Positions 10,841 through 12,880 of a DNA stretch of 56,765 nt are shown in pieces. The position numbers and the translations under genes are program-made. The stretch is from Verrucomicrobiota bacterium (lineage in GTDB: Bacteria; Verrucomicrobiota; Verrucomicrobiia; Opitutales; Opitutaceae): assembly GCA_025352985.1 (NCBI GenBank), contig JANXRL010000107.1, forward strand, positions 1 through 56,765, written 5' to 3'. The notes under the pieces were generated by a model, which did not search any database, had not been told where the DNA came from, and saw only the letters and a list, made by a program, of their open reading frames with translations. Position 1 is the stretch's first letter. Each line of letters starts with the position of its first letter.

Positions 10841-12880
10841 TCAGGCTCTTAGAGCAAACTGGGGCAATGCCTCGAAGCATTGGGCGAAGGCGGGCTTTTC
10901 GTCTTCGGGCAAGGATAGTGGAAATTTCGAGCCGCTGCGTTTCCAACGGGCGAGCCACTCTTGTCCGAGGATGCGCGCGTAGGCGGGGTGAGCGGCTGCG
11001 CCGGAAGCCTGCGTGAAGGCGATCGTGGTGTCGGCCTTAGGCCCTGTGCCGACTCCCGCCGCGACGGTAAAGCCGGAGGTGAGCAACGCTACGCGGACGG
11101 CGGTCGCGGCCGAGTAGGTGTAGAGTTCGGCGCTCTTCGGCGCGCAGTGTTTGGCGATGCGTGCGAAGACGGCTGGAGTCCACAGGCCGATGTTCGTCTT
11201 CGCGGAGAACGGATCGTAATAGATGAGATCGGGGACGGCGGAGGTTTCGAGAAACTGGAGGAAGTCGCCGGTGTGCAGCTCCCATTCGAGCAGGTCGGAA
11301 GCGTGCGACCAGCGGCCGGTTTCGATTAACTTATAGGGTGCGCCATGGCGCAGGTGCGGGAAAAGGCCCGCGTGTTTCGCGGCGAGTTTGAGCGGGTCGA
11401 GATCGCATTCGAAACTCACGATGCGGAGCGGGCGAAGGACGGTCGTGCCGCGCTCGGCTAGTTCGCGCTCAAAGCATTGGATGGCGGCCATGGCGTTCGA
11501 CGCGGCGCCCAAGCCGACGTCCCAGATGACGAGTTCGGCGGTATCGTCGTCGGATTTTTTCAACAGCCGCGCGGCGAGGCGCGATTGGTCGATGTAAAGC
11601 CGCTGGGCCTCGTCGCTCGGGGCGGACACGGAGTGCATGACCTCGCCGGAGCTGAGCTGGCGGATGCTGGAGAAGCCCTGCGCTGAAGTAAGGATGTCGT
11701 AATCGCCGAGGGCCTTGGGTGTGCGTTCGCGCGTTTTTTTGGGCGGGACTGGCGGGCTGTCCTCGTCCTGCCGGACGAGTTCTACGCGCATCTTTTCGTA
11801 ATAGGAGAGAAACGTGCCGGCGAGGATGTGCGCGCGCATTTCGGACATTAAACGGTGGTAAAACCGGATATTGTGGATGCCGAGCAGGTGCCAGCCTAGG
11901 TATTCGCCGGTCTTGGTGAGGTGGTGCAGGTAGCCCCGTTCGTAGTGTTTGCAACAGTGGCAATCGCAGCGGGAATCGAGCGGACTGTCCTGGAATTTAT
12001 ACACGGCACGCGCCATGTGCAGGCGTCCGTGCGAGGTGAACACGGTGCCGCGCTGCGCGAGTTGCGTGGGGATGATGCAGTCGAACATATCCACACCGCG
12101 ATGGACGGCCTCGAGGATGTCGATCGGCGTGCCTACGCCCATGAGATAGCGCGGGAGATTTTCCGGCAGGTGCTCCGTGACGAATCCGGTGAACTCGTAG
12201 CGTTCTGCGTGGGTTTCGCCGACGGCGAGACCGCCGATGGCAAGGCCGTCGAACGGCAGTTCTCGCAGGAATTCTGCGCTTTTTTGGCGGAGGTCGTGGT
12301 GGCAGGCGCCTTGGACGATGCCGAACATCGCCTGAGGTGAGTCACCTCGCGCCGCGAGCGAGCGTTTCGCCCAGCGGTGGGTGAGTTGCATCGCGGCTTC
12401 GGCCTCATCATGCGGGGCTGTCGAGGGGATGCACTGGTCGAGCACCATCATGATGTCGCTGCCAATGGCTTTCTGCGTCTCAATGCTGACCTCGGGCGAG
12501 AGAAGCAGTGTGGTGCCGTCCACGTAGCTTTTGAAACGGGCGCCGTCCTCGTTCATTCGGCGCTCGCTGGGGAGGGAGAAAATCTGGAAGCCGCCGGAGT
12601 CGGTGAGGACGGGGCGGTCCCAATTCATGAAGCGGTGGATGCCGCCGAATTTTTTGAATACTTCGGGGCCGGGACGGAGGAGGAGGTGATAGGTGTTGGC
12701 GAGAAGGATGTTGGAGCCGGTGGCGCGGAGCGTTTCGGCGGTCTGTGACTTCACCGTGGCTTGCGTGCCCACGGGCATGAATATGGGCGTCTGCACCTCG
12801 CCATGCAGCGTTTTGAAGCGGGCGGCGCGGGCTTTGGAGCCGGTGGCGATTTTTTCCAGGGTGAAGGCGAGGCGGGACAT
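10841..12880 (-). CDS. tgt: tRNA-guanine transglycosylase fused to an MnmC-type methyltransferase domain
   Basis: Residues 1 to about 375 (679 in all) are a complete Tgt: general acid Asp94 in [10 protein letters not shown], the GIVQG loop near 188, GGLAVGE near 216, nucleophile Asp267 in GVDMFDC, and zinc ligands Cys305, Cys307, Cys310 and His336 (CDCHCC, GIHN), three ahead of the E. coli positions. Tgt inserts Q precursors at G34. After a linker rich in Pro, Lys and Arg, residues about 400-660 match the SAM-dependent domain of Mnm[14 protein letters not shown] as the SAM loop, [15 protein letters not shown] matching the DGFAPAKNPDMW motif, and [14 protein letters not shown]. In MnmC that domain finishes mnm5U34. 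The FAD oxidase half of MnmC is absent. I start at the Met at 12880 ([10 protein letters not shown]), where Tgt homology begins; an ATG at 12910 would add ten residues. Confidence 0.92.

Follow-up and report, generated by a model that had tools for sequence, protein, structure and literature searches.

On the minus strand of the window (the whole stretch of DNA analysed here, 56,765 nucleotides of contig JANXRL010000107.1 from an Opitutaceae genome), a single ORF at 10841..12910 encodes a full transglycosylase (Tgt) followed by an MnmC2-like methyltransferase. Both domains are already known and neither is new; it is their union in one chain that is established here. The longest reading of the frame gives 689 aa. 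Since conservation sets in near Met11, at position 12880, the true start is probably this methionine, so that the gene would span 10841-12880, as the first-pass annotation had it, and the protein would have 679 aa. The Tgt domain occupies residues 26-375 (11786..12835, minus strand) and matches PF01702 (TGT, Pfam) with 483.4 bits against a cut-off of 26.3. The bacterial Tgt model TIGR00430 (NCBIfam) gave 448.6 bits, above its cut-off of 306.75, and the archaeosine TgtA model TIGR00432 gave 138.4 bits, below its cut-off of 350. A linker of lower conservation (residues 376-398; 11717..11785, minus strand; pLDDT 65-67 in blocks 381-400) leads to the methyltransferase domain at residues 399-689 (10844..11716, minus strand), which was delimited by PF05430, an AlphaFold2 model and matches to MnmC2 folds. 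PF05430 (Methyltransf_30, Pfam) scored 51.9 bits on the full protein (residues 532-631) and 53.8 bits on the C-terminal part alone. A Tgt-MnmC fusion had been proposed from the first reading of the DNA, together with a search by the Tgt and Methyltransf_30 profiles; both domains were matched within the one ORF and the fusion was mapped.

AlphaFold2 modelled the complete protein with a mean pLDDT of 85.8 and the methyltransferase part with one of 91.5. The closest solved fold for the Tgt part is Zymomonas mobilis TGT (1q2r), and the top nine Foldseek matches of the methyltransferase model are all MnmC2 or MnmC structures, including 2qy6, 3vyw and 3ps9. The likeness to MnmC thus holds for family (PF05430) and fold; the NCBIfam MnmC2 model NF033855, with 75.3-77.6 bits on the fused protein, stayed under its cut-off of 136, as it did for three further fused relatives (61.9-67.5 bits). 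This cut-off is strict, because a likelier MnmC2 protein (L229) also fell short with 110.8 bits. The partner of the PF05430 domain is Tgt and not the FAD oxidase MnmC1 that defines bifunctional MnmC.

When the ORFs of 98 loci were clustered, no operon partner proved to be conserved. Leaving aside ORFs that overlap the fused gene, the most common neighbour cluster was found in 22 of the 98 loci, approx. 2 kb upstream, and is represented in the window by an EngB-like gene. A ribosome-type GTPase gene at 13651-14376 (PF01926, 59.4 bits), which we take to be EngB, adjoins a TrmO-type tRNA methyltransferase gene at 14369-15178 (PF01980, 121.3 bits) near the fused gene. No preQ1 riboswitch was detected in 10 loci (129,706 bases), and a riboswitch search of positions 10000-14400 of the window returned none, with one sub-threshold sRNA match. 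Although 20 phage and 70 plasmid records matched, none of either kind (0 and 0) covered 80% of the query at one place, so these records gave no mobile carrier, and the fused protein matched 0 defence families of PADLOC-DB. A DNA-modifying role was considered, but there was neither a defence match nor a phage carrier.

Conservation of the fusion and of its residues

A scan over GTDB species genomes yielded 388 pattern matches, 381 of them with a related protein; the 381 may include ordinary Tgts, and the count of fusions is therefore limited to the best 80 that were kept. In each of the 80, a single frame encodes both Tgt and methyltransferase (in L079 and L114 one end is missing), and the lowest pairwise identity is 60%. 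An architecture repeated in 80 of 80 kept relatives is far beyond chance, and a chance or assembly join as the origin of the fusion is ruled out. Two of the 80 are named genomes without a MAG label, Geminisphaera colitermitum TAV2 (L104) and Verrucomicrobia bacterium IMCC26134 (L094). Across 20 representatives the mean identity is 75% in the Tgt domain and 60% in the methyltransferase.

Residues were counted in 81 fused sequences (the 80 relatives and the query), 55 ordinary Tgts and 38 paralogs from the tree described below. In Z. mobilis numbering, Asp102, Gln107, Asp156, Cys158, Gln203, the GGLAVGE motif, Tyr258, Met260 and Asp280 are invariant in 81/81 fused sequences, and at position 106 there is Phe in 78 of them and Tyr in the other three. 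The nucleophile corresponds to Asp277 of the query (12080..12082, minus strand), GGLAVGE to residues 226-232 (12215..12235, minus strand), and the zinc site to C315, C317, C320 and H346 (11873..11968, minus strand), whose four ligands are likewise invariant in all 81. The first reading had called the catalytic and zinc residues complete, and so they are throughout the fused set. According to the accessible parts of PMC3660597 and PMC10723273, Cys158 and Val233 separate use of preQ1 from use of queuine. As GGLAVGE is kept in 81/81 sequences together with C158 and V233, and the queuine-type Gly at 233 (GG[LS][AS]G) is absent, the fused enzymes would use preQ1 rather than queuine.

What has changed lies elsewhere in the Tgt half. 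Arg at position 286 is present in 55/55 ordinary Tgts, but in only 1/81 fused sequences and 1/38 tree paralogs, and Arg at 289 in 55/55 versus 3/81 and 3/38; the query reads QLAQRG here (residues 283-288; 12047..12064, minus strand). Glu157 is found in 55/55 ordinary Tgts and 0/38 paralogs and is Gln in 81/81 fused sequences, as in the D158-Q159-C160 stretch of the query (12431..12439, minus strand), where the equivalents of Asp156 and Cys158 are kept. Conversely, Arg304 occurs in 38/38 paralogs versus 4/55 ordinary Tgts, basic residues at 299 and 304 being commoner in the paralogs. Positions 159 and 161, beside the base pocket, are also unlike those of ordinary Tgts, while positions 47, 49 and 52, presumably the residues on the U33 side, are kept in 38/38 paralogs. 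In the covalent Tgt-RNA structure reportedly described by Xie in 2003, Arg286 and Arg289 are said to contact U35. A confirmation of this U35 role did not appear in the accessible parts of the open-licence literature searched. From this role and the conservation pattern of the two arginines, we infer that a changed neighbour base is read. The fused Tgt would accordingly insert preQ1 at an altered RNA target. There are thus signs of the shifted specificity surmised in the first-pass annotation: positions 157, 286, 289 and 304 are changed across the clade, whereas the determinants of preQ1 use are not.

In the methyltransferase half, D464, G466, G468 and N472 of the SAM motif (residues 463-474; 11489..11524, minus strand) as well as D566, F568, S569 and W577 are invariant in 81/81 fused sequences, and E501 is kept in 80/81. 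The DPFS motif lies at residues 566-569 (11204..11215, minus strand), within the 15-residue stretch first quoted as the mark of MnmC, which was located at residues 564-578. D566 aligns with Asp178 of MnmC and E501 with Glu101, both termed critical in the part of PMC3648344 available to us. Of the SAM-site residues of bifunctional MnmC, as far as the accessible text gives them, Phe67, Gly179 and Pro182 are replaced by Leu, Pro and Ala in the query; the same part of PMC3648344 notes that Phe67 varies among other MnmC2 proteins. Since the three are not kept, the amine pocket may differ from that of MnmC. In the N-terminal GExxH motif the fused domain has MH where MnmC2 has YH. Methylation of nm5U34 in tRNA by this half is a candidate activity.

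A second Tgt beside an ordinary one

The host genome (2.88 Mb, 92.29% complete) carries a second Tgt on contig C172, which lacks its first positions; a short Tgt match on contig C146 may be the other end of it. In this second Tgt (L002, 1480-2442), Val, Asn and Thr at 318, 320 and 323 replace the zinc cysteines, and His349 and the catalytic residues are retained; Cys320 is missing from 31 of the 55 aligned ordinary Tgts, a count that depends on the alignment. The protein first labelled a tgt product is thus a bacterial Tgt, but a paralog, since its genome carries another, and it need not make queuosine. Every one of 13 sampled genomes of the host genus has a Tgt frame of approx. 690-800 aa and another Tgt match, sometimes as fragments only. 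Two of them have a further long Tgt frame in addition to the one of fused size; the frames measure 755 and 706 aa in G151 and 763 and 492 aa in G155, the 492 aa frame lying near a contig start.

Among 33 genomes searched for Tgt, 30 carry the fused paralog and 28 of these have another Tgt beside it, although in G258 and G537 the latter was found as fragments only and in G526 it has one in-frame stop. In the MAGs G521 and G531 (2/30), the fused Tgt alone was found. Two odd matches were noted on the way: G518 has a third, divergent Tgt beside the ordinary and the fused one (contig C16, 168567-169640; 323 bits, 389 aa frame), possibly a contamination, and a Tgt match of G160 (contig C68, 35424-36554) contains one in-frame TGA.

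PF05430 was detected in 47 of 150 Opitutaceae genomes, and 44 of the 47 have frames of at least 637 aa, taken as fusions by their length. The same fusion has a broken frame in G052 (L006) and is cut by a contig end in G028 (L018); the match in G081 is weak. In a sample of 387 Verrucomicrobiota genomes, the methyltransferase profile matched in 98, comprising 22 fusions (>330 bits), 3 degenerate methyltransferases, 3 relatives that stand alone and a remainder of 70; many of this remainder, with frames near 590 aa, we take to be putative bifunctional MnmC. Seven of the 22 fusions belong to other families, and reading them showed that they align over their full length. An origin from a split gene was also considered; the three stand-alone methyltransferases (L154-L156) have no adjoining Tgt in the stretches read.

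A tree was built from 93 Tgt domains, of which 38 are paralogs and 55 ordinary Tgts, some of the ordinary ones coming from the same genomes. The fused Tgts form one clade in it, whose branch has a support of 100/100 and whose stem is long, at 1.03 changes per column. The clade occurs in Verrucomicrobiota, Riflebacteria and other MAGs. Riflebacteria paralogs fall inside a group of 29 rows with Opitutaceae paralogs (87/93, poorly resolved within), and the ordinary Tgts of Riflebacteria are placed elsewhere. This suggests transfer of the fused gene between phyla, with the caveat that the signal comes from MAGs, where binning errors and unreliable record titles occur.

These data bear on the view that the Tgt half is simply a redundant queuosine enzyme for U-G-U anticodons whose changes are neutral. 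Its full set of catalytic and preQ1 residues, its score above the TIGR00430 cut-off and the two MAGs in which no other Tgt was found would fit. Yet the RNA-side arginines that no ordinary Tgt lacks are lost nearly clade-wide, most genomes hold another Tgt, and a single clade with a long stem, kept across several phyla, suggests a task of its own. We consider such redundancy improbable. QueA is present in 142 of 150 Opitutaceae genomes, including the host, so that its presence does not discriminate; together with the other Tgt in 28/30 genomes, it implies that queuosine is already supplied.

Co-occurrence with other wobble-uridine methyltransferases

A more serious alternative, though still a rather unlikely one, is that the methyltransferase half is an ordinary nm5U34 methyltransferase that completes mnm5U34 in NNR tRNAs, with the Tgt paralog acting separately on NNY tRNAs, so that the fusion would merely couple two wobble-base enzymes. 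The MnmC2 structures, as the closest solved folds, speak for it. In the host genome, profile searches found no PF05430 domain beyond the fused one and no MnmM, and no MnmC1 match exceeded the cut-off, the best one covering 34 of 400 positions. A separate complete mnmC, which the first reading had named as an argument against a new role, was hence not found in this 92% complete assembly. The MnmC1 model is a weak test, as 0 of 150 Opitutaceae genomes exceed its cut-off and the oxidase parts of MnmM fusions also fall below it (79.9 of 174.2).

In the accessible part of PMC9976899, mnmM and mnmC are reported as mutually exclusive. Among the 150 Opitutaceae genomes, PF05430 occurs in 47 and MnmM in 21. 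Only one genome has both, against 6.6 expected (P 0.0023), and at the level of genera the overlap is 1 against 4.0 expected (P 0.026); both P values ignore kinship. Neither protein was found in 83 of the 150, which counts against the mnm5U alternative. MnmM occurs in 61 of the 387 Verrucomicrobiota genomes, and 2 of the 22 full-length fusions of this sample overlap with it versus approx. 3.5 expected (22 x 61 / 387), i.e. without clear avoidance. The co-occurrence pattern thus leans to an mnm5U role in Opitutaceae and is neutral beyond that family. No second match to the methyltransferase profile was found in the fused genomes of the phylum sample, with up to 6 candidates scored per genome. 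On the other hand, four genomes from three lineages combine a full-length fused methyltransferase with a second nm5U-type methyltransferase, which is MnmM in G261, G441 and G140 (164.6 bits in the latter, above cut-off) and an MnmC2-like protein of 110.8 bits in G518. G530 and G531 have an additional stand-alone methyltransferase of the sister branch. The NF033855 scores of all four fused methyltransferases tested and the changed Tgt residues, which an mnm5U role leaves unexplained, also weigh against this alternative.

The MnmM proteins of Opitutaceae have frames of 543-714 aa in 19 of 21 genomes. In the four that were read (L204, L205, L206 and L207), MnmM follows an FAD oxidase-like N-terminal part, a layout that resembles MnmC but has an unrelated methyltransferase. 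The accessible part of PMC9976899 describes the oxidase that partners MnmM as unknown.

Loss of the methyltransferase in one genus

In genus g87 the Tgt part has stayed intact, as seen on reading G338 and G350, and the C-terminal part lacks DPFS and ends early. The two loci with a paralog Tgt and a motif-less, shortened methyltransferase remnant are L157 (5155-7062) and L158 (5847-7568). A PF05430 search of G338, G341 and G350 gave no match; G341 is known from its match only. Loss of the SAM residues in all relatives, which the first-pass annotation had held to be decisive against its idea, was not observed: motif I and the catalytic-type Asp persist in 81/81 fused sequences and are lost in g87 only. 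MnmM is present in 3/3 genomes of this genus. The loss is compatible with redundancy of the methyltransferase with MnmM and in this respect favours the mnm5U role, but it is a single evolutionary event.

L157 and L158 keep the nucleophile, the second aspartate, the base-pocket and the zinc residues, and positions 157 and 159 are changed in them as well. That the Tgt half was kept when its methyltransferase was lost argues that it has a use of its own. The same residues, invariant in 81/81 fused sequences, make it very improbable that the Tgt half serves mainly as an RNA-binding module for the methyltransferase and has no exchange activity, even though the constancy of the fusion and the basic residues at 299 and 304 would suit such a module. 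Also quite unlikely is a reversed order of events, in which the methyltransferase first acts on free preQ1, or on some other pathway amine, and its product is what the Tgt half inserts. Both active sites reside on one chain, positions 159 and 161 near the pocket differ from those of ordinary Tgts, and E. coli Tgt is described in the accessible part of PMC13416341 as inserting a variety of substrates. However, the changes at 157 and 159 outlast a working methyltransferase in g87. Moreover, known MnmC2 and MnmM enzymes act on tRNA.

Discussion

Our tentative reading, to which we assign a probability of roughly 0.4, is that the Tgt of the fused protein inserts preQ1 at an RNA target other than the usual one and that the attached methyltransferase N-methylates this aminomethyl base. 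It would be a bifunctional RNA-modification enzyme built upon a second, specialised Tgt. In a first step, the Tgt half would replace a guanine of an RNA stem-loop with preQ1 by the ordinary covalent mechanism, reading a different neighbour base and hence probably acting on an anticodon loop other than U-G-U. In a second step, the MnmC2-like half would transfer a methyl group from SAM to the nitrogen of the aminomethyl group that preQ1 exposes once inserted, and the product would be 7-(methylaminomethyl)-7-deazaguanine. Such a base should resist QueA, which would make it an end product apart from queuosine. The -CH2-NH2 group methylated by MnmC2 on the wobble base nm5U34 is also present on preQ1, and it is this chemistry that leads us to propose N-methylation of preQ1. 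As insertion of an aminomethyl base and N-methylation of an aminomethyl group share one chain, two steps on one substrate are the simplest arrangement. Methylation of a queuosine precursor had been offered as an example in the first-pass annotation; it competes with the mnm5U34 role, over which we prefer it because the latter does not account for the altered Tgt partner. Points against our reading are that no operon partner is conserved, that the 10 loci searched hold no preQ1 riboswitch, that g87 has lost the methyltransferase motifs, that the fusion and MnmM seldom meet in Opitutaceae, and that Phe67, Gly179 and Pro182 are replaced.

The wider claim would be that this is an undescribed and widespread enzyme which places preQ1 into RNAs other than those of the U-G-U set and N-methylates it in place. 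It would thereby make a 7-deazaguanine nucleoside new to tRNA, and one cell would run a second deazaguanine pathway in parallel with that of queuosine. This claim is conceivable but on balance doubtful. The open-licence literature searched, in its accessible parts, holds no description of a Tgt-methyltransferase fusion, of its clade or of the predicted activity, and N-methyl-preQ1 was not found in the open-licence literature searched. To our knowledge, bacterial Tgt is generally taken as having one tRNA job. From a paralog that is conserved, carries its own amine methyltransferase and is altered on the RNA side, one would predict either a modified nucleoside not yet described or a new RNA target. 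It also cautions that not every Tgt match is a queuosine enzyme and not every PF05430 domain an MnmC.

Among known systems, the bacterial Tgts of Z. mobilis and E. coli have the fold, nucleophile, base pocket and zinc site in common with the fused protein, which is 46% identical to 1q2r when the folds are aligned; it differs in its C-terminal methyltransferase, in the replacements at 286, 289, 157 and 304, and in forming a separate clade. With MnmC2 or MnmC(m) (2qy6, 3vyw), it shares the fold, motif I and the equivalents of Asp178 and Glu101. In contrast to MnmC2, the four fused methyltransferases scored all lie under NF033855, Phe67, Gly179 and Pro182 are not kept, the partner is Tgt instead of the MnmC1 oxidase, and there is a C-terminal region in common with a stand-alone PF05430 branch. 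It is over this region that the branch (L154, L155, L156, L227 and L228, found in Verrucomicrobiota and in two further genomes) can be aligned with the fused domain; the branch is not fused, and its members L154-L156 are 31-32% identical to the fused methyltransferase. Eukaryotic QTRT1 and archaeal ArcTGT belong to the same Tgt superfamily, whereas the fused proteins keep V233 and C158, which are not those of a queuine enzyme, and exceed the cut-off of the bacterial model but not that of TgtA. Finally, N-methyl-preQ1 occurs in phage DNA, where DpdA and DpdM are involved, so that the proposed base may already be known outside tRNA. The base would be the same, but there it is found in DNA and involves separate enzymes.
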